NCBI GenBank assembly: GCA_938084055.1
Contig: CALKDK010000019.1
Location: forward strand, 1-64,000
Direction of reading: 5' to 3'
Length of the DNA: 64,000 nucleotides
From: an uncultured Luminiphilus sp.
Lineage (GTDB): Bacteria > Pseudomonadota > Gammaproteobacteria > Pseudomonadales > Halieaceae
Within the stretch, counting starts at the first letter, position 1. Every line of letters starts with the position of its first letter. Shown piece by piece: positions 29,893 through 40,973 of this stretch. The translations under genes and the position numbers were made by a program. The notes below the pieces were generated by a model. It was not told the DNA's origin, did not search any database, and saw only the letters and a list, made by a program, of their open reading frames with translations.

Positions 29893-29916
29893 GTGTTTGT
29901 AATTACTTACAAACAC
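29893..29916. promoter_or_regulatory. 24-base palindrome, candidate operator
   Basis: GTGTTTGTAA and TTACAAACAC are perfect 10-base complements with TTAC between them. The site lies 135 bases upstream of the cyclase gene and about 380 bases upstream of propionyl-CoA synthase. The form matches sites bound by dimeric TetR/GntR-type regulators. There is no T-run suited to termination. Which gene it controls is unknown. Confidence 0.6.
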
Positions 29917-30111: not shown

Positions 30112-30221
30112 TCTAATCCGTCCAGATTCTGTGGCCGTAATTCTCCTCAGTTTCTGGTCAATCAATGAAAACAGCTGCCCCATCGGGTGGTATCCGGGAA
30201 CCCAGAGTGACGAAAAACCCT

Positions 30222-30294: not shown

Positions 30295-33200
30295 ATGACC
30301 GTAGGAGTCGCTTGGGAGCAACTGTGCTCACAGGTGGGGGAAGACGCTCTCCGCCGTTTGATCAATGATTCACCTGAGGAATTTTTTGGTGACCTCGCCC
30401 GCCGTAACGTCCATTGGTATGACCAGGATGCTCGACAGTGGCTGAGTTTTAATTTGACCGAACGCTGCTGGGCCGGTTTCGATTCGAACTCGGGACAGGG
30501 CGTTGCCAGCGGCGCCCTCCCGGAGCAGGACAATCCCTGGAGTCGGGTTCTTGATGACAGCAGAGCGCCTTACCTCCGCTGGTTCGTCGGGGCCCACACG
30601 AATGCTGCATTCAACGAACTTGACCGACATATCCTACAGGGGAGGGGCAGCAAGACCGCGCTGATTTTTGAGGGTGATCGCTGGGACCCCTCCAAAAACC
30701 AAGGCCGGGGCGGACCCGTAACGGAGCAACGCTTCAGTTACAGGGAACTGCTATTCGAGGTCGTTGTCCGGGCCAGGGTGCTCACCAACCTGGGATTACA
30801 AACGGGTGACCGCATCGCCCTGAACATGCCCAACATCCCGGAACAGATTTTCTACATTCTTGCTGCCCAGCGGCTGGGCATTGTCTACACCCCCGTGTTT
30901 GGTGGTTTTTCGGCCAAGACATTGTCGGATCGTCTGCATGACGCAGGGGCCAAAGTCGTGATTACCGCCGATGGCGGTTACCGAAACGCTGAAGCGGTCC
31001 CCTTCAAAAGCCAGTACACGGACCCTGCGCTGGATAACTACGTGCCGAGGGACGCTGCGTTGAAGGCGCTGTCCGAAACGCTGGCGAGCTACCCAGAAAT
31101 TGACGATGGCGAGGCACTGCTCGCTTCAGTCAGCGCCGCGCTGGCCGGGGAAATCACCCTCGAGCGAGCCGACGTCATGCGCGAACTTGGCGCTATCTTG
31201 GGTGAAAATGCGTCTATCTCCGCTGAAAAAAGCGCAAAACTTCGAACTGAGGTTGCCATTGCGCTATCCCGCGTGGGCCATGACGTGGAGGCGGTCGTGG
31301 TGGCCACCTACACGGGTCAGGAAGTTGTAGAGTACGAGCGGGATGCGTACTCAAACGACCTTGTGGCCGCAGCCAAGCAGCAGTTCTCGGAGGAAATTGC
31401 TGCCCCGGACCTGGCCGGCCTCGAAACCCTGGATGACACGCGCTTCCAGGCAACCCTGAATTCCCTGCAGCCAGTTGTGCCTGTGGAAGCGAACTGGCCG
31501 CTATTCATCATCTACACGTCAGGCTCAACGGGCAAACCCAAGGGTGTGGTGCATACGCACGGCGCCTGGCTGGCCGGTGTTACCCACTCGATGCACGCCG
31601 TGTTCGAGGGCACCACCGATGACACACTCTATGTCGTGGGTGACCCGGGCTGGATCACGGGCCAGTCCTACCTGATCGCAGCGCCACTTTCGATGGGCAT
31701 GACAACGGTTGTTTGTGAGGGCTCCCCCCTGTTCCCCCATGCCGGTCGCTTCGCCTCGACGATAGAGCGGTACGGGGTCACGCTATTCAAGGCAGGGTCC
31801 ACCTTCCTCAAAGCAGTGATGACCGACCCCGCCAACGCACGGGACATGGCGGGCTTCGACATGAGCTCCCTGCGTACCGGCACATTTTGTGCAGAACCGG
31901 TGTCCCCCGCGGTGCAGCAATTTGCCATGGAAAATATTTGTCCTCACTACATCAATTCCTACTGGGCGACAGAGCATGGCGGTATCGTTTTTTCATGCCC
32001 CTCTGGCGGCTACAAAAACCTTCAGCCTGATGCCAAGACATGGGCGCTACCCTGGATACAGGCGCAGGTCAGGGTAGCTGAATCAACTGCGGATAGTGCC
32101 GTTGGAGCCTGGCGCGAAGCCGATGTGGGAGAGAAAGGTGAGTTGGTGATCACCCGCCCCTACCCCTACCTCGCCCATACACTGTGGGGCGACAAGGAAA
32201 ACTTTGGCCGCGATGGTTGGTGTGGCGATTTGCCGCGCTTCAAGGCGGCGTATTTTGAGCGCTGGGCCGACGGGTACAGCTACACACAGGGCGACTATGC
32301 CCGAAGACATGAGGACGGCGGCTTCACCCTGCACGGTCGCTCCGACGACGTCATCAATGTGTCTGGTCACAGGATAGGAACCGAAGAAATTGAAGGCGCC
32401 ATTCTCCGCGACAAGACCCTGCGCGAGGACTCGCCGCTGGGTAATGTGGTGGTGGTGGGGGCACCCCATGATGAAAAGGGCGAAACACCGGTCGCCTTCC
32501 TCGTGGCCGCACCGGGACGCAAGCTGAGCGATGATGACTTCACTCGTTTACAGGGATTGGTGCGCAGCGAAAAAGGGGCGACCGCCGTCCCATCTGACTT
32601 CCTTGTCGTGCCAGCTTTCCCCGAGACCCGCTCGGGAAAATACATGCGCCGGACCCTCAGGGGGTTGCTGCTGGATGCTCCGTTGGGCGACCTCACCACG
32701 CTGAAGAATCCCGAGGTTGTTGACGTCATTCGAGAAGCCATTGGCCAGTGGCGTGACCATGGTGCGCTGGCCCAGGCACGCCAGATAGTGCAGACCTGGC
32801 GCTATATCAGGCTAGAGATACACCGCCTCACCGAGGCCCAAACCGTCGCACTACTGTTCATTAACAACCCACCGGTCAATGCACTCAATGAGCGGGCGCT
32901 GGACGAGCTACACACTGTAATCCACCAGATCAAGCATCAGAGCAACATCGATGCGCTGGTTGTTACAGGGGCACGGGGAACCTTCGTTGCGGGTGCCGAT
33001 GTCAAGGAACTACTGAAAATTGGGGAGGTAGGCGATACCGCCTCGGCACTGACACCACCCCATGCCGCACAGGCGGCCTTCGCGGCCATAGAAAGCCTCG
33101 ACATGCCGGTTGTCGCGGCTATCAATGGCCCCGCGCTGGGGGGCGGTAATGAACTGCTGCTGTCCTGTGCGTATGTCATCGCTGCCGACCACGCGACCTT

Positions 33201-35715
33201 TGGCCAACCCGAAGTCAACCTGAACCTATTGCCCGGTTACGGCGGCACCCAGCGTCTTACCCGTAAGCTGCAAGCCCGTCACGGTGACCAGGGTGTCGTG
33301 GAAGCTCTGGGCATCATGCTACGGGGTCGCCCCATAGACGCGCAACGAGCAAGGGACATTGGCCTCGTTGACGAGGTCGTTCCCGTCGGCAGCGTGTCGG
33401 CACTGGACCACGCCATGTTGCGGCTCAGGGAGCATTTCAATGGGCAGACCAGCATCAGCCCTGTCCTTGAACAGCAGCGCACCCTCCTACAACAACGGGA
33501 AGCACCACTCGCCGTTGGGGATACCGTCAAAGCACACCCGGAAGTCACGTCGGCACTGTCACAGCTCGCCGCCGGCGGACGTGAGCACGTGTCCCGACGT
33601 ATTCTCGAAGCGACATTTACCGGACTTGATCAGGGAGTCTCCGCTGGGCTCGATGCCGAAGCGCGGCTATTTGCCGAATCGGTCTGTGATCCCGCTTCGG
33701 GTCCTGCCGGCATCACTGCTTTTTTGGAGAAACGCAGCCCAGCGCTGCCTTGCCAGCCCAAGGAGGTACCCGCCTATCCCGGCCCAGAGCAACTTACCGA
33801 ACTGGAATCGTCGGGAAACTTGCTGCCCGTGGGCGCAAGTTTCTACCCCGGCGTCACTCCCATTCCCGCGCACCAGTACGGCTGGGGAGTCGCGAGATCA
33901 GAACACGACGGAGCGCCGGAACACGGCGACCCCAGTGTTGCAGAACGTAAACTGGTGTTCCCCACCCCGACGCCGAGAGCGGGGGAGGCATTGATCTACG
34001 TGCTGGCATCAGAGGTGAATTTCAACGATATCTGGGCTGTCACCGGCATACCGGTTTCTCCATTCGATGCCAGGGAATCTGATGTTCAGGTCACTGGGTC
34101 CGGCGGCGTGGGTCTGGTTGTCTCGCTGGGTGCCGAGCTGGTTGCCGAGGGCAGGCTGTCGGTCGGTGACCTTGTCACGGTTTATTCGGGACAGAGTGAA
34201 TTGATGTCTCCTGACCAGGGCCTGGATCCCATGGCAGCTGACTTCCGCATTCAGGGCTACGAGCGCAATGACGGTACCCACGGCCAGTTCCTGGCGGTCC
34301 AGGGACCACAGCTGCACCCGAAGCTGAGTGCGCTCACATTTGAGGAGGCGGGTTCCTATGGCCTGACCATGGGGACGATCCAACGCGCGCTGTTCACCAC
34401 CCTCAACATTGAGGCTGGCAAACGGCTGTTTGTTGAGGGCGCATCCACAGGAACAGGTTACGACTGCCTCCGCAGTGCCACTGCCAGTGGGCTGTCCTGC
34501 CTGGGCATGGTGTCCAGTGATGATCGCGCGGCGCGAGTCCACGCCGCAGGCGGTGCCGCCATCAACCGCAAGGACCCCCGATGGCAGGACATTTTCACGG
34601 CGGTCCCGGACGACCCCGCTCAGTGGCGAGCCTGGCAGGCGGCGGGGGTACCCTTCGTCAAGGCTGCGGAAGAGGCTGCCGGCGGCGGCCTAGACTACGC
34701 TGTATCCCATGCCGGGGAGAACGCTTTTCCGCGAACCTTCCAGATGCTGGGAGAGAATGGCGTACTGGCATTTTACGGCGCCTCCTCCGGGTACCGCTTC
34801 ACGTTCCTGGGCAAGCCGGGTGCCTCGTCACCGGCAACCATGTTCCGACGTGCAGGCTTGCGTCCAGGCCAGACCATACTGATTATTTATGGGCCCGGGG
34901 CTGATGACGGTATCGTCGACAACACCGCGATCGAGGCGATCGAAGTCGCCTGCCAGAGCGGCGGCCAGGTTGCCGTTCTCGTCGACACCATTGCCCAGCG
35001 GGAGTTTGTCAGCTCGCTGGGGTTCGGACCCCGAGTAAGGGGCATTGTCAGTATCGAGGAGATTGCCAAGCGCCTCGGTGATGACTTCGCACCGCCCGGT
35101 CCGTTCCCTCGAATGCCCGATCCATTTACGGAATCGGCGGCGTTCCGGGAGGCCGTCCGCGACTTCTCGGATAAAACCCTCAAACCCATTGGCTCCGCCA
35201 TTGCCCCGGCATTGCGAAACACGCTGGACAAGCGTGGTCTACCCGATATCGTTTTTGAGCGCCGCGGGCGTGATGGCCTGGCCCTGGCATCGGCGCTGGT
35301 GAAACCCAACACGGGGCGCGTCGTGTATTCCGAGGATCTCGACGGGCAGTGCTTCAGCTTTTACGCACCCCAGGTATGGACACGGCAACGACGTATTCTG
35401 ATGCCCACTGCGGAAATACGCGGGACACACCTGAATACGTCCCGGGAGTTTGCCGAAATGCAGGAACAAATCGCTTCCGGACTGCTCGCTGTCCTGCCAC
35501 CAACGCCAGTCACCATGGAGGAGCTGCCTGAAGCTCACCAGGCCATGTGGGAGAACCGGCATAAAGGCGCAAATTATGTGGCGGTACACGCCCTGCCCCG
35601 CGCCGGGTTGAAGACGAAAGAAGAGCTCTACCGAGCTTGGGCACTACGCGACGCCGCCGAGCGCGGCGAACAGATAACTCAAATAGAAACGGGTTCAGCA
35701 GGAGCACTCCGATGA
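30295..35715 (+). CDS. pcs: Propionyl-CoA synthase (trifunctional fusion)
   Basis: This enzyme turns 3-hydroxypropionate, CoA, ATP and NADPH into propionyl-CoA in one polypeptide. It has 1806 aa; characterised homologues have about 1820. The AMP-forming acyl-CoA synthetase spans ~1-830: IYTSGSTGKPKG at 406-417, YWATEHGG, and catalytic Lys782 in RSGKYMRR. It includes the ~150-residue helical insertion typical of this family before the P-loop. The crotonase domain (~837-1120) keeps both catalytic Glu, Glu953 (GGGNEL) and Glu973 (FGQPEVNL). The Ccr-like NADPH reductase domain (~1219-1806) has EGASTGTGYDC. The ATG follows AGGGAGAA; an upstream in-frame GTG-rich extension has no site. The stop overlaps the malonyl-CoA reductase ATG. 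Confidence 0.96.
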   Translation: MTVGVAWEQLCSQVGEDALRRLINDSPEEFFGDLARRNVHWYDQDARQWLSFNLTERCWAGFDSNSGQGVASGALPEQDNPWSRVLDDSRAPYLRWFVGAHTNAAFNELDRHILQGRGSKTALIFEGDRWDPSKNQGRGGPVTEQRFSYRELLFEVVVRARVLTNLGLQTGDRIALNMPNIPEQIFYILAAQRLGIVYTPVFGGFSAKTLSDRLHDAGAKVVITADGGYRNAEAVPFKSQYTDPALDNYVPRDAALKALSETLASYPEIDDGEALLASVSAALAGEITLERADVMRELGAILGENASISAEKSAKLRTEVAIALSRVGHDVEAVVVATYTGQEVVEYERDAYSNDLVAAAKQQFSEEIAAPDLAGLETLDDTRFQATLNSLQPVVPVEANWPLFIIYTSGSTGKPKGVVHTHGAWLAGVTHSMHAVFEGTTDDTLYVVGDPGWITGQSYLIAAPLSMGMTTVVCEGSPLFPHAGRFASTIERYGVTLFKAGSTFLKAVMTDPANARDMAGFDMSSLRTGTFCAEPVSPAVQQFAMENICPHYINSYWATEHGGIVFSCPSGGYKNLQPDAKTWALPWIQAQVRVAESTADSAVGAWREADVGEKGELVITRPYPYLAHTLWGDKENFGRDGWCGDLPRFKAAYFERWADGYSYTQGDYARRHEDGGFTLHGRSDDVINVSGHRIGTEEIEGAILRDKTLREDSPLGNVVVVGAPHDEKGETPVAFLVAAPGRKLSDDDFTRLQGLVRSEKGATAVPSDFLVVPAFPETRSGKYMRRTLRGLLLDAPLGDLTTLKNPEVVDVIREAIGQWRDHGALAQARQIVQTWRYIRLEIHRLTEAQTVALLFINNPPVNALNERALDELHTVIHQIKHQSNIDALVVTGARGTFVAGADVKELLKIGEVGDTASALTPPHAAQAAFAAIESLDMPVVAAINGPALGGGNELLLSCAYVIAADHATFGQPEVNLNLLPGYGGTQRLTRKLQARHGDQGVVEALGIMLRGRPIDAQRARDIGLVDEVVPVGSVSALDHAMLRLREHFNGQTSISPVLEQQRTLLQQREAPLAVGDTVKAHPEVTSALSQLAAGGREHVSRRILEATFTGLDQGVSAGLDAEARLFAESVCDPASGPAGITAFLEKRSPALPCQPKEVPAYPGPEQLTELESSGNLLPVGASFYPGVTPIPAHQYGWGVARSEHDGAPEHGDPSVAERKLVFPTPTPRAGEALIYVLASEVNFNDIWAVTGIPVSPFDARESDVQVTGSGGVGLVVSLGAELVAEGRLSVGDLVTVYSGQSELMSPDQGLDPMAADFRIQGYERNDGTHGQFLAVQGPQLHPKLSALTFEEAGSYGLTMGTIQRALFTTLNIEAGKRLFVEGASTGTGYDCLRSATASGLSCLGMVSSDDRAARVHAAGGAAINRKDPRWQDIFTAVPDDPAQWRAWQAAGVPFVKAAEEAAGGGLDYAVSHAGENAFPRTFQMLGENGVLAFYGASSGYRFTFLGKPGASSPATMFRRAGLRPGQTILIIYGPGADDGIVDNTAIEAIEVACQSGGQVAVLVDTIAQREFVSSLGFGPRVRGIVSIEEIAKRLGDDFAPPGPFPRMPDPFTESAAFREAVRDFSDKTLKPIGSAIAPALRNTLDKRGLPDIVFERRGRDGLALASALVKPNTGRVVYSEDLDGQCFSFYAPQVWTRQRRILMPTAEIRGTHLNTSREFAEMQEQIASGLLAVLPPTPVTMEELPEAHQAMWENRHKGANYVAVHALPRAGLKTKEELYRAWALRDAAERGEQITQIETGSAGALR

Positions 35716-38700
35716 ATGATTTCGTGCAGTTCAGCGACGACGTTGTGAGCCAATCCAAAGCCGGGCGCCGGCTGGAGACAAAATCCATCGTTCTCACCGG
35801 CGCAGCAGGCTCGATCGGCCGCTTTATCAGCCGTCAGTTACTGCGCGAGGGCGCACGGGTCATGATGACCGGGCGTGACGTCAGCAAACTCGAGGGGTTT
35901 GTCGATATCCTATGTGACGAGGGTTTTGCCCGGGAGAATATGGTGGTCATGGCAGGCGACTGCGCCGATCCCGAGATCTGTCGAGAGATCGTCGCCGCAA
36001 CCGTGGAGGCCTTCGGCACCATCGATGTATTGGTAAATAACGCTGGGGCTGCTGGTCCCAAATACACGCTGCGGGACATACCGTTCTCCGACGTGGAAAT
36101 GCGTACCGCAGGATCCGACCAGACCATGTTTGACTCGGCGATGAACCTGCTGGGGGCACCCTGGAATATGGCCCGAGCCGCCGCACCCCACATGTCAGTT
36201 GGCGCATCCATCATTAATGTTTCTACCATCTTTTCAAGGACCCACTATTACGGTCGCATTCCCTACGTTGTGCCCAAGTCAGGCCTGAACGCCTTATCCA
36301 AGGGGTTGGCACTGGAACTGGGGGAAGAGCGTGGCATCCGGGTCAATACAATATTCCCCGGGCCGATTGAATCCGAGCGCATTGATACCGTATTTGCGCA
36401 CATGGACGAACTCCAGGGCCTGGAACCCGGCAGCACCGGCCGTGAGTTCCGGGATCTAATGATTACCACACGGCAGGGCGATGACGGCCTGGAGTATCGC
36501 TATCCCACGCCCACGGACGTTGCCTCGGCAATCACGTGGCTCGCATCGGAAGAATCCGCAGCCCTTTCGGGTCATCACGTGGAAGTCACCAATGGCATGC
36601 AGGTTCCTGCCCAGAGCCGCTCGCAACTGGTGTCCTGGCCAGATAAGCGCCTGGAGGACCTGTCAGATAATATCGTGCTGATCCTGGGCGGTTCTGATTA
36701 TGAAGAAGCTGTAACCTTCGCAGAGCGCCACACAGAAAGTGGGGCGCGGGTGCTACTGGCGTTCCGTAACCTCGAATCAGTGGGGCATGCTCGGGCAATC
36801 ATTCAGGCGCGGGAACTGGAGTCCGTGCAGCTTTCACACCTCGACCCTCTCCGTCGCGAATCCATGGACAGAACCATGCAATTCATAGACGATCATTTTG
36901 GCCGGCTTGATGGTGTCATCGTCTTGCCGCAGAAGAAAAACGGCCAGTACGGCTATTCGATCTGCACTGCGACAGATGACGATGTGGAAAATTTTGTTAA
37001 GGATGAAGTCGTCGCACCCGTCGCCTTTGCCTCCACGCTGGCCACCAACCTGAGTCGCTGGTTTGGCAAGTGCGAGCCGCCCGCGATCACCTATGTCACC
37101 AACCCTAGCGATGGTCACGGCAACCTGCTAAACGAGGTGATTAGAGCGTCAAATGAGGCGTTAATCAGGGGTTGGCGGCACGAGGACGATACCCTGACGA
37201 CTGCCGGCGAACTGGCCTGGGCAGTGCAGCCCAACCAGTTGGTGCGCTACGACACGGAAGACAGGGATGCCCTGCCCTTTGCTGCGGATTGGGCGGCGAC
37301 ACTGACCAACCGGGTCAGGCAGATGGACCCCATTAATCTCTGGATACCCAAAGACATCAAACGCGCAACCGGCAAAGGCGCAATGCCTACATCACTGATG
37401 CGCGTGCTGCCCGGCCTGCACAAAGGCAAGACCGCCGTGATTACCGGTGGCAGCCTCGGAATTGGACTGCAGTTGGGCCGCTATCTGGCTATTGCCGGGG
37501 CTCGGGTACTGCTCAGTGCGCGGAGTGAATCCAAGCTGCTGGAGGCCAAGTCGGAAATTGTCGAGGAGCTGCGCGGCATCGGGTACCCAAACCCGGATTC
37601 ACGGATACACACATTGGCCAACATCGACGTGGGTGATCCGGCAGCACTCGACCAGCTACACCGCCACGCCGTGGATTTGTTTGGACAGGTAGATTTCCTC
37701 ATCAACAATGCCGGCATATCCGGCGCAGAGGAAATGGTCGTGGATATGACGCTCAAGGACTGGGATCGCACCATGGAGGCGAACCTGATCTCAAACTACT
37801 CCCTGATCCGCAAGTTCGGTCCACTGATGAAGGATAAGGGGCGGGGCTCCATACTCAACGTCTCCAGCTATTTTGGTGGCGAAAAATACGTCGCCGTCGC
37901 CTACCCCAATCGGGCGGATTACGCAGTCTCAAAGGCGGGACAACGGGTGCTGGCTGAAATCCTGTCACGCCACCTGGGTCCGGAAATCCAGATTAATGCA
38001 CTGGCTCCTGGTCCTGTGGACGGGGCGCGATTGCGCGGTCTGGGCGACGCACCCGGCCTGTTTGACCGTCGTGGGCGGCTGGTGCTTGAGAATAAGCGCC
38101 TCAACCAGGTCCATGCCGCGATCATTGCCGCCGTGGCAGAAGGCTATCCCGTCGAGGACATCAGGAAGCTCTCGGCCAATGCCATCGAGGTTTTACCCCA
38201 GCGCAAACTGCCCAAGGGACTGAGCCGTCTCTATGCGCAGGTGAAGGATTCGGGGGGCATGGGGAGTTCCAACAAGTGCCTCCTGCATATGGGAATGGCA
38301 GTGAAGCTGGTTGAGCGTTTGGTCAATGCAGGGGTATTCACCGCTGAGGACAAGGACGAATTTCTGGGCTCCTTTGTCGATGCACCCTCACCTTTCTTTG
38401 ACAAGGAAGCCTGCCTGCAATCGGCGAGCCAGATTGAGTCAGGCATTCTGAACAGATTGCACCTGCACAAGATGCCGACAGACGAGCAGGTCGGACTCTC
38501 TACGGTCTTTCACCTCGCTGATGAAATTGTTAGCGGCGAGACGTTCCACCCCTCCGGCGGTCTCAAATTTGACCGGTCAGTGACGGAAGGAGAGCTGTTG
38601 CTTTCACCGAGTGAAAAGGACCTGGCTCGCCTCAGTGGCAAGCGCGTTGTGGTTCTCGGCGACTGTATGCGCAATGAAATTGCTGAGGTCGCGAAGGGCT

Positions 38701-39362
38701 TCACGACCAACGGCATTGAAAAGCTGTGGGTACTGACCAGGACAGAGGAAACAGCGACCGCTCTCTTCCATGCACTCGATTGTGACAATGCAGATAACAT
38801 CGATGTACGTTGCATTGGCAATGATATCGAAGGGGCACTCGACACCCTGCTGCGCAACGAGGGTGGTTTCGATGTCGTCGTGAGCAGTCCTTTCGAGCGG
38901 CTACCCCTCAATGCACTGGCTGGCGAGCGTGGAGGCGACTGGGATCGGGTTCTGTCGGATGAACAGTTCCGGCAACTGGTACATGAACAGCTCACCCACC
39001 ACTTCAGAAGCGCCCGTATTGCTGCGCTGGTCCCCAACTGCCAGATTGTGCTGTTGACCCCGGACACCTCACTGGCATCCACCCGTGAGGAGTTTGCCCT
39101 GGCTCTGTTCGTCAAGAACTCACTCCATGCGTTCACCGTAACATTGGGCGTGGAGAGTGAGCGGCTACCCACCGTACCGGCAGTCAACCAGGTGCAGCTC
39201 ACCCGGCGAGCCCACACCGAGGAGCCCTCCAACGACCAGGAGCTGTCAGAAGAGATGGAGCGACTGGTCGCCGCGGTGATGCAGTGCTCGGTACCCGCTC
39301 CGTCACCCAAGGAAAGTCGTTACCTATCAAAAATCTTCAGGGGTAATGCGGTCACGGTATAA
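35712..39362 (+). CDS. mcr: Malonyl-CoA reductase (bifunctional, 3-hydroxypropionate forming)
   Basis: This enzyme reduces malonyl-CoA to malonate semialdehyde and then to 3-hydroxypropionate with two NADPH. It has 1216 aa, against about 1220 in Chloroflexus. Two complete SDR units are fused. The N-half (semialdehyde reductase) has TGAAGSIG at 29-36 and Tyr185/Lys189 (YVVPK). The C-half (CoA-thioester reductase) has TGGSLGIG at 578-585 and Tyr737/Lys741 (YAVSK). The chosen ATG overlaps the upstream stop (ATGA) and follows AGGAG; a longer frame inside the upstream gene is rejected. Its product is the substrate of the preceding gene, so the pair is a functional unit. A strong terminator follows. 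Confidence 0.96.
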   Translation: MNDFVQFSDDVVSQSKAGRRLETKSIVLTGAAGSIGRFISRQLLREGARVMMTGRDVSKLEGFVDILCDEGFARENMVVMAGDCADPEICREIVAATVEAFGTIDVLVNNAGAAGPKYTLRDIPFSDVEMRTAGSDQTMFDSAMNLLGAPWNMARAAAPHMSVGASIINVSTIFSRTHYYGRIPYVVPKSGLNALSKGLALELGEERGIRVNTIFPGPIESERIDTVFAHMDELQGLEPGSTGREFRDLMITTRQGDDGLEYRYPTPTDVASAITWLASEESAALSGHHVEVTNGMQVPAQSRSQLVSWPDKRLEDLSDNIVLILGGSDYEEAVTFAERHTESGARVLLAFRNLESVGHARAIIQARELESVQLSHLDPLRRESMDRTMQFIDDHFGRLDGVIVLPQKKNGQYGYSICTATDDDVENFVKDEVVAPVAFASTLATNLSRWFGKCEPPAITYVTNPSDGHGNLLNEVIRASNEALIRGWRHEDDTLTTAGELAWAVQPNQLVRYDTEDRDALPFAADWAATLTNRVRQMDPINLWIPKDIKRATGKGAMPTSLMRVLPGLHKGKTAVITGGSLGIGLQLGRYLAIAGARVLLSARSESKLLEAKSEIVEELRGIGYPNPDSRIHTLANIDVGDPAALDQLHRHAVDLFGQVDFLINNAGISGAEEMVVDMTLKDWDRTMEANLISNYSLIRKFGPLMKDKGRGSILNVSSYFGGEKYVAVAYPNRADYAVSKAGQRVLAEILSRHLGPEIQINALAPGPVDGARLRGLGDAPGLFDRRGRLVLENKRLNQVHAAIIAAVAEGYPVEDIRKLSANAIEVLPQRKLPKGLSRLYAQVKDSGGMGSSNKCLLHMGMAVKLVERLVNAGVFTAEDKDEFLGSFVDAPSPFFDKEACLQSASQIESGILNRLHLHKMPTDEQVGLSTVFHLADEIVSGETFHPSGGLKFDRSVTEGELLLSPSEKDLARLSGKRVVVLGDCMRNEIAEVAKGFTTNGIEKLWVLTRTEETATALFHALDCDNADNIDVRCIGNDIEGALDTLLRNEGGFDVVVSSPFERLPLNALAGERGGDWDRVLSDEQFRQLVHEQLTHHFRSARIAALVPNCQIVLLTPDTSLASTREEFALALFVKNSLHAFTVTLGVESERLPTVPAVNQVQLTRRAHTEEPSNDQELSEEMERLVAAVMQCSVPAPSPKESRYLSKIFRGNAVTV

Positions 39363-39374
39363 CGCGTCATAGCT

Positions 39375-39429
39375 GGGCGGGGATGCCGCCCACACCGTTT
39401 ATCAAGGGGCCAGGTAGGCCCCTTTTTTT
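39375..39429 (+). terminator. Tandem hairpin and rho-independent terminator after malonyl-CoA reductase
   Basis: A first hairpin (GGGCGG/CCGCCC, 39375-39391) is followed by GGGGCC-aggta-GGCCCC with seven T (39405-39429). The second is a typical intrinsic terminator and closes the two-gene operon about 45 bases after its stop. Confidence 0.92.
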
Positions 39430-39539: not shown

Positions 39540-40973
39540 TCATTGCTTACCCGCCAATTGCACCAGGTTGGCCTGGTGCTGCTGGCGGTCAATGCGGTAG
39601 TACACCAGCGCCCAGAGCATGAGTGCCCACAGCAGGCATTGGCTGGGAATTAGGGTCGCTCCCAGATTCCATAAAACGCTTTCGCCAACGTCACCAGGGA
39701 CGGCTCCCTCGGGGAAGTCCACCCACTGGAGCATCAGTCCAGCGATAAAAATACCGATGCCCTGATTGGTCTTGCGAACGAATGTCAGTGCGGCGAAGAA
39801 GACGCCCTCACTGCGCCGGCCAGTTGTAACCTGCGCCTGCTCAACCAGGTCCGCCACCATGGATCCGAGTACCGCCTGCATGGCAATGATCAAGCCCAGA
39901 TCCAAGGTGTTGATGGTGACTACGATAATAAAAAGATTGGGGTCGCCGTTATCGGGCAGCACCCCCATCAAACGCAGGAAAACCGGCAGGGGCTGGATGG
40001 TAAATGCCAGGATTCCCAGGGTAATCACAGCACGCTTTTTGCCAAGCAGGGTTGCCATGGGTGACGCGATCAGCAGGCCAAGAACAGCAGAAACGACCAC
40101 CAGTGCCGTCCAGTAAAAAATCTGGAGTGAGGAGAACTGCCAGAAATAAGTCAGCATCAAGAAGGCCAGTGCGGCAGTGAGCCCCGTCGCTACGGAGCCG
40201 GCAATGCTCGATAAAAACAAAGCAAAAAAGTTTTTGTCAAACAGGGTTTCCCGAATCTCACGAAACGCCGACTGAAGGGAACCCCGTGTAGCGGGCTGCT
40301 CGTCACCGAAATAACGGACATACTTTTGTGTCCCGAGCGCGGATATCAGAATGGCGCAAAAAATCAGGGCGCCAGCCAGCCAACCGTAGGTTGAATAACC
40401 CTCGCGGTTCAGCGTTCCTACGGGTTGTGTTTCCGTTGGCACCAGCAAAAATCCGAACATGATGACCGCAAGAGCAGTGCCACCACTCCAGGCAAAAAAC
40501 AGTCGCCATGACTGGACTGCCGTGCGCTCATCGTAATCATGTGTGAGTTCAGGTAACAGCGAGGAACTCGGGGTTTCAAAAAGCGTGATGAGTGTCCTGA
40601 TCAGGACAGCCATGGTAAGCAGATAGATAAAAAGCCCCGTGGAGCCCCAATCGGGTGGGTTCCAGAGCAACGCGTAACAAGCGGCCACGGGAAGAGCAGA
40701 GGCATACATAAAGGGGTGGCGGCGCCCCCAGCGGGATCGCGTTCGATCTGACCAATAACCAATCACCGGGTCGCTCAGGGCATCCAGCACCATTGCAATC
40801 AGCAGGGCTGATCCCACCAGTGCGGCATCCAGGCCCACCACCGTGCTGTAGAACAAGAGCAGAAAATAGGCAAAGCCATTGTCCTTGATGCCATAAGCCA
40901 TGGCGCCAATACCGTGAAAAATTCTGGCGCTTAAGGGTAGTTCCTGATGCAAATCGCTATGTTCTGCAGTCAT
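39540..40973 (-). CDS. GPH-family (glycoside/sodium symporter-type) MFS transporter
   Basis: This is an inner-membrane cation symporter of 477 aa with about 12 hydrophobic segments. The GPH pattern is clear: early FLLLFYSTVVGLDAALVGSALLIA, then DALSDPVIGYWSDRTRSRWGRRHPFMY, and LITLFETPSSSLLPELTHDYDERT. The family imports sugars, sugar acids and sometimes other solutes. It is last in a minus-strand series with the dehydrogenase- and decarboxylase-like genes and the TonB receptor, 254 bases from the nearest. A nine-pair hairpin lies directly upstream of its start. Confidence 0.9.
   Translation of the reverse strand: MTAEHSDLHQELPLSARIFHGIGAMAYGIKDNGFAYFLLLFYSTVVGLDAALVGSALLIAMVLDALSDPVIGYWSDRTRSRWGRRHPFMYASALPVAACYALLWNPPDWGSTGLFIYLLTMAVLIRTLITLFETPSSSLLPELTHDYDERTAVQSWRLFFAWSGGTALAVIMFGFLLVPTETQPVGTLNREGYSTYGWLAGALIFCAILISALGTQKYVRYFGDEQPATRGSLQSAFREIRETLFDKNFFALFLSSIAGSVATGLTAALAFLMLTYFWQFSSLQIFYWTALVVVSAVLGLLIASPMATLLGKKRAVITLGILAFTIQPLPVFLRLMGVLPDNGDPNLFIIVVTINTLDLGLIIAMQAVLGSMVADLVEQAQVTTGRRSEGVFFAALTFVRKTNQGIGIFIAGLMLQWVDFPEGAVPGDVGESVLWNLGATLIPSQCLLWALMLWALVYYRIDRQQHQANLVQLAGKQ

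Follow-up and report, generated by a model that had tools for sequence, protein, structure and literature searches.

A propionyl-CoA synthase–malonyl-CoA reductase operon of Luminiphilus with an RpoE-ChrR-type promoter site and a probable role in light-linked CO2 co-assimilation

Here we characterized a two-gene operon encoding propionyl-CoA synthase (PCS) and malonyl-CoA reductase (MCR) in a 64,000-nucleotide stretch of an uncultured Luminiphilus sp. (assembly GCA_938084055.1, contig CALKDK010000019.1, positions 1 to 64,000; hereafter the window). Both genes lie on the plus strand. The first, pcs (30295–35715), starts with the ATG at 30295, ends with the stop at 35715 and encodes a trifunctional PCS of 1806 amino acids, whose domains correspond to a 3-hydroxypropionate (3-HP):CoA ligase, a 3-HP-CoA dehydratase and an acryloyl-CoA reductase. 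The second, mcr (35712–39362), runs from the ATG at 35712 to the stop at 39362 and encodes a bifunctional MCR of 1216 amino acids. Stop and start overlap as ATGA at 35712–35715, and an intrinsic terminator on the same strand (39404–39424), an 8-pair stem followed by T5, closes the operon. The terminator scan of the window returned 9 terminator-like sites against 8.2 in shuffles, and the operon terminator is singled out by its stem, T tail and place rather than by the number of sites.

Using phmmer, PCS residues 19–1785 were aligned with 6eqo_A (1835 bits), which we take to be the PCS of Erythrobacter sp. NAP1. Pfam places ACAS_N/AMP-binding, ECH and zinc-dehydrogenase domains in one chain, giving the fusion of ligase, enoyl-CoA hydratase and acryloyl-CoA reductase of about 1800 amino acids that defines a PCS, and the motifs YTSGSTGKPKG, SGKYMRR, GGGNE and FGQPE are present. 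MCR aligns over residues 18–1216 with 8hi4_A (1009 bits) and over residues 20–1216 with 8hjw_A (958 bits). It consists of two fused short-chain dehydrogenase/reductase (SDR) halves totalling about 1200 amino acids, with a Rossmann motif (TGxxxGxG) and a YxxxK motif in each. Which residues of these motifs are catalytic is presumed here from general knowledge of the enzymes. The near full-length alignments, domains and motifs confirm a genuine operon with both predicted enzymes intact, and the initial annotation was right on the enzyme identities, the complete reading frames with their key motifs, the ATGA overlap, the single terminator and the gammaproteobacterial host. PCS directly precedes MCR in every examined locus whose contig extends far enough upstream, and part of the operon is found in 45 of the 57 genus genomes, counting PCS fragments at contig ends (G064, G073, G076). 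In one genome of the genus (G111, contig C18), PCS and MCR are split across several frames with stops in one MCR piece, through either decay or sequencing error.

The host is a Luminiphilus-type member of the Halieaceae near HTCC2080, with a draft genome of 2.92 Mb in which the window belongs to contig C19. Its MCR is 96% identical to that of a Luminiphilus metagenome-assembled genome (MAG), 92% to that of HTCC2080 and 69% to that of L. syltensis NOR5-1B, where PCS adjoins; the pair named for NOR51-B in the initial annotation is thus real. The host genome encodes PufL and PufM, so by its genes the host is a bacteriochlorophyll phototroph. In an MCR tree holding 20 of 34 rows, L. syltensis falls with NOR5-3, next to Chromatocurvus and apart from other Luminiphilus, hinting at transfer or a mixed genus. 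A second MCR tree did not resolve this grouping, and its G138 branch is an artefact; trees of MCR and PufM for joint movement gave no resolution either, and no main claim rests on them.

Upstream of pcs, on the plus strand at 30114–30139 and 181 nt before the PCS start, lies a site of the type read by RpoE-ChrR, a singlet-oxygen extracytoplasmic function (ECF) sigma system that we take to be group ECF11. The site reads TAATCC-N16-CGTA. An alignment of the regions upstream of pcs from ten Luminiphilus genomes, in general poorly conserved (mean column identity 44%), contained 11 invariant columns, eight of which form T[GA]ATC[CT]-N16-CGTA. The pattern was defined on these ten; it fits strictly in 24 of 26 testable genomes outside them and in 34 of 36 over all testable Halieaceae genomes, with G108 and G095 excluded for too little upstream DNA. 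The strict matches sit 118–208 nt before the estimated PCS start, and 14 clearly distinct spacers occur among them. Markov-shuffled upstream sequences gave 0.0005 matches per 500 bp. The PCS site is the single strict match in the 155 kb of host stretches, and each of the 39 found in 1.43 Mb of examined stretches (many loci overlap) precedes PCS. Scanning for sigma-70 promoters yielded nothing on the plus strand ahead of PCS. Sections of PMC5507510 and PMC4336711 give the promoter of the singlet-oxygen-responsive PSPTO_1043 of P. syringae as TGATCC-N16-CGTA and that of RpoE2 of Shewanella oneidensis as TGATCC ... CGTAAT, and list the variants TaATCt (P. syringae katG) and TGATCt. The host hexamer TAATCC is comparable to the katG form, and in both consensus and N16 spacing the site agrees with these regulons.

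Three other regulatory candidates were rejected. In the divergent intergenic region (window 29893–29916), a palindrome of 24 bp, GTGTTTGTAATTACTTACAAACAC, also fits TGTN12ACA, a PpsR-like pattern; none of the 13 relatives compared has it upstream of PCS, and it was therefore dropped as a regulatory site. An RpoE-type site before a PAS-domain regulator taken for PpsR in one relative (G060) is missing before the homologues in three other genomes. In the photosynthesis cluster, 2 strict sites were seen against 1.1 expected, and we make no regulon claim for it.

We next compared the distribution of MCR with that of PufLM. Among 140 family genomes, MCR is present in 47, PufLM in 53 and both in 39, so that PufLM occurs in 39 of 47 MCR-positive but 14 of 93 MCR-negative genomes. 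In the 78 near-complete genomes the contrast is 19/19 versus 6/59 (p 2.6e-13, kinship uncorrected). Such genome-level p-values treat genomes as independent; the cautious test is at genus level, where all five MCR genera are among the six PufLM genera of 28 (Fisher p 6e-5). Restricted to the genus, the association is weak (PufLM in 35/42 MCR-positive versus 9/15 MCR-negative genomes, p 0.08), and outside it PufLM occurs in 4/5 versus 5/78 (p 3e-4). MCR is rare phylum-wide, in 2 of 398 sampled genomes (the host and G488). Outside the family sample, four of six MCR-positive genomes carry PufLM (G488, G537, the Wenzhouxiangella MAG G538, and G539); another, G542, MCR-positive without PufLM, was left out of the six as a repeat of G040.

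Published physiology offers circumstantial support for a link to light. According to PMC10674011, 3-HP bicycle genes of the phototroph Porphyrobacter ULC335 are among those raised by day. The part of PMC3666943 that we drew on gives yield gains in light on malate of 14% for L. syltensis, 47% for C. halotolerans and 54% for P. rubra, and all three prove to be MCR-positive. Its authors discuss reductant build-up there and point to CO2 fixation as its sink in other bacteria, with hydroxypropionate unmentioned.

The genes needed to carry propionyl-CoA onward were found elsewhere in the host genome. Contig C79 holds a run of carboxyltransferase, biotin carboxylase/biotinyl protein, methylmalonyl-CoA epimerase (136.6 bits; NCBIfam cut-off 114.95), methylmalonyl-CoA mutase (1262 bits; cut-off 876) and MeaB. 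The first two are a candidate two-subunit propionyl-CoA carboxylase (PCC), named from Pfam domains and operon place. Two short carboxyltransferase matches, of AccA/AccD length, lie on contigs C71 and C29 and are candidates for acetyl-CoA carboxylase (ACC). Together with the PCC candidate, epimerase and mutase, they indicate a path from acetyl-CoA to succinyl-CoA that takes up two bicarbonates. By textbook stoichiometry, this route costs 3 NADPH and 3 ATP, one of which goes to AMP. Completion of a predicted linear route by an epimerase, a mutase and a PCC candidate in one separate operon is new here. The pair had been described as a stand-alone operon with other bicycle genes absent from the window. 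This holds for the 20 Pfam-scanned proteins, none of them from positions 1–22000; genome-wide it fails, given the C79 operon and an isocitrate lyase.

The isocitrate lyase, on contig C47 (532 amino acids, 1040 bits to NF005074, cut-off 446), bears on whether the operon serves plain anaplerosis on acetate or other substrates that yield acetyl-CoA, without any particular connection to light. The route does end in succinyl-CoA, and crotonyl-CoA carboxylase/reductase (CCR) of the ethylmalonyl-CoA pathway passes its cut-off in none of the 57 genus genomes; CCR-model matches of 139–159 bits fall inside PCS, judged by place and frame length. Against this, the host has a true isocitrate lyase, so the PCS-MCR route is probably not its sole path of acetyl-CoA assimilation, and matches to the family occur in 128 of 140 relatives. 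MCR also tracks PufLM, and the operon has a promoter site of the photo-oxidative-stress type. We therefore regard plain anaplerosis as unlikely, though still the most plausible of the alternatives considered. Less likely again is the supply of propionyl- or methylmalonyl-CoA for membrane lipid remodelling or a storage polymer under photo-oxidative stress. Cyclopropane fatty acid synthase does belong to RpoE-ChrR regulons elsewhere, according to sections of PMC5507510 and PMC4336711, but no lipid or polymer synthesis gene is among the Pfam-named neighbours, and the host has an operon that leads from propionyl-CoA to succinyl-CoA. For odd-chain lipids, a role suggested in the initial annotation, we found nothing in support, and no direct test was made. 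Of the other roles suggested there, the PufLM tie and the RpoE-ChrR-type site favour a reductant sink or a supplement to photoheterotrophy, and anaplerosis as such is consistent with the route.

Taken together, we consider it probable that the operon serves as a light-linked valve for CO2 co-assimilation, one that consumes ATP and NADPH and is linear rather than an autotrophic cycle. The operon would be the committed part of the route acetyl-CoA + 2 HCO3- + 3 NADPH + 3 ATP to succinyl-CoA, with ACC, MCR and PCS followed by PCC, epimerase and mutase, in a host living as an aerobic anoxygenic phototroph. Transcription would start at an RpoE-ChrR-type promoter, in which case expression of the operon most likely rises when singlet oxygen is formed from O2 by bacteriochlorophyll in the light. 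The operon would use photochemical ATP and excess reductant to fix bicarbonate into the tricarboxylic acid cycle, and this anaplerotic valve would keep carriers oxidised and spare organic carbon. Both enzymes, the downstream genes, the PufLM tie and the conserved promoter site can be read directly from the genomes; beyond these, we infer that RpoE-ChrR is present and reads the site, that light induces the operon, that the enzymes are active and of physiological benefit, and that flux from acetyl-CoA to succinyl-CoA relieves over-reduction. A more tentative extension, which we rate as possible but doubtful, is a feedback loop: singlet oxygen at an over-reduced photosystem would free RpoE from ChrR and turn on the PCS-MCR sink, which would in turn drain the over-reduction.

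Several observations weigh against this light-linked valve. As to the promoter, the G103 site, 188 nt ahead of the start, reads TCATCC-N16-CGTA and deviates at one position. The site is absent before PCS in Chromatocurvus, which is PufLM-positive, MCR-positive and light-stimulated; its large light gain suggests that light can stimulate growth without this promoter. The site is likewise absent at G488 and at the three examinable MCR loci outside the family sample (L131, L133, L137). No ECF sigma gene was found in about 1.8 Mb by a rough motif regex, which is a weak test and not a genome-wide RpoE/ChrR search. As to phototrophy, PufLM was not found in two MCR-positive genomes outside the family sample (G540, G541) or in eight MCR-positive Halieaceae genomes, all less than 90% complete. 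Six near-complete PufLM-positive genomes lack MCR (G012, G037, G038, G039, G087, G097), so phototrophy does not need MCR; in G087 and G097 there is no PCS-type match either. The part of PMC3666943 cited above gives no light gain on pyruvate for L. syltensis and P. rubra. The PCC candidate subunits fall under the NCBIfam cut-offs, and the host draft is 82.75% complete. Expenditure of NADPH under oxidative stress could also be costly.

A complete autotrophic cycle would be a different matter from a linear valve, and two have to be considered. The 3-HP bicycle would share its first-arm enzymes with the operon, as in Chloroflexus, where the MCR and PCS chemistry is the same. For its marker, mesaconyl-CoA C1-C4 transferase (TIGR04253), none of the 57 genus genomes has a match above the 725-bit cut-off, the best host match being 93 bits. 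The best matches in the genus, at 521–531 bits in G074 and G111, could be taken in favour of a bicycle, but we rejected both on their neighbours. The G111 candidate (L061:2220-15653) lies within a cluster of acyl-CoA dehydrogenases, an SDR and a thiolase with no bicycle genes, and the G074 candidate (L062) lies in a gene row whose lengths match that cluster. Judged by this marker, autotrophy by the bicycle is highly improbable, the least likely of all the readings weighed. RuBisCO large subunit was found neither in the host draft nor in any of the 57 genus genomes except one (G083, 65% complete), whose family match (C258:1173-2015, L099) could come from contamination or from a RuBisCO-like protein.

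The second cycle is the 3-hydroxypropionate/4-hydroxybutyrate (HP/HB) cycle. According to PMC9802188, eight Luminiphilus MAGs encode the full set of HP/HB enzymes, from which its authors conclude that autotrophy is likely. The key enzyme of this claim is 4-hydroxybutyryl-CoA dehydratase (HBD). We take its 4Fe-4S ligands to be C99, C103, H292 and C299 (1u8v numbering). The host genome has one full-length HBD-fold protein (contig C59, 520 amino acids, best match 1u8v), which has C, Y, H and A at the four places, with Y and A where 1u8v and 6vjr have C103 and C299. No true HBD was found in the host draft or in the near-complete relatives G059 and G078. A further 26 family proteins were read: 14 have CFQRC and YHRxSYVCKTG, 9 of them from the genus, and 12, every one from the genus, are ligand-less. 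By identity to true HBD (match threshold E 1e-30), the 57 genus genomes divide into 13 with the true enzyme (89–100%), 22 with a paralogue (32–36%) and 22 unmatched. In favour of the cycle, MCR and PCS are present, and the 13 genomes with true HBD all carry MCR; the ligands were read directly in 9 of them. However, true HBD was not found in 29 of 42 MCR-positive genus genomes; the 29 include 6 of the 10 with a completeness of 95% or above, HTCC2080 and L. syltensis among them, and HBD-like genes of 62–78% identity also occur in MCR-less genera (g2, g9, g10, g16, g19, g20). On ligands and distribution, HP/HB appears closed to the host lineage, barring an unknown dehydratase, and by sequence just one subclade of the genus remains a candidate for it; we consider a complete, autotrophic HP/HB cycle in this lineage very improbable. 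The ligand-less protein belongs to a run on C59 (L054:4542-9551) with a GntR regulator, a CitE/HpcH-like lyase and an MmgE/PrpD protein. This run is best read as a catabolic unit, and its HBD-fold member, which recurs in 22 genus genomes, not as an HP/HB enzyme.

Among the closest known systems is HTCC2080, with an MCR 92% identical, the same operon and promoter site, and the same upstream cyclase, TauD and Na/alanine symporter genes; it differs in being a separate species genome and in its downstream neighbours. Mixotrophy of HTCC2080 through a '2-hydroxypropionate cycle' (sic) was proposed in 2010 (Thrash 2010, as cited in a part of PMC3463544). Erythrobacter sp. NAP1 and Porphyrobacter are likewise aerobic phototrophs with PCS and bifunctional MCR and no full bicycle, but they are Alphaproteobacteria, whereas the host is gammaproteobacterial. 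Within the sections of PMC10674011 considered, key 3-HP enzymes are given for both NAP1 and Porphyrobacter ULC335, and an RpoE-ChrR-type site such as the host carries is not described for them. The RpoE-ChrR regulons of P. syringae, Shewanella and Rhodobacter have the same promoter consensus, TGATCC-N16-CGTA; here the target would be a carbon-fixation operon, and sigma and anti-sigma genes were not located. According to PMC10100682, six Halieaceae isolates are without a complete canonical CO2 fixation pathway, and 'hydroxypropion' does not occur in its main text. Among the matches listed in searches of open-licence literature, nothing tied RpoE-ChrR or singlet oxygen to PCS or MCR. The trait in HTCC2080 is already in print; as far as our searches show, the HBD ligand test, the counted tie to PufLM and the promoter site are new. 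For this widespread genus, a linear co-assimilation route is then possible and HP/HB most likely impossible in most species, which restricts the published inference of Luminiphilus autotrophy. If photo-oxidative stress does switch on fixation, one simple circuit would couple light, redox balance and CO2 uptake, with the promoter site as a concrete switch open to testing.

Symporters of the GPH family adjoin PCS-MCR in two subclades and are only 36–38% alike between them. They are co-directional in one subclade (L088:4161-5612) and convergent in the other (window 39540–40973). A GPH-type MFS symporter next to MCR in the window could point to uptake of external 3-HP or acrylate, for example from dimethylsulfoniopropionate, and its use through PCS. 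Symporters in G060, G071, G099 and G063 are co-directional and 138–183 nt downstream (Pfam on the G060 copy, with which the others cluster). Yet MCR, which such use does not need, directly follows PCS wherever the contig reaches, and the symporters are little alike, so we hold this use of the operon to be improbable, if less so than either autotrophic cycle. About 16 kb past the window on contig C19 (L033:16391-19368) is a second acyl-CoA mutase of 554 amino acids with its own MeaB. Pfam finds the mutase domain only, and its neighbours are AMP ligases, an Fe-alcohol dehydrogenase, a P450 and a luciferase-like monooxygenase.

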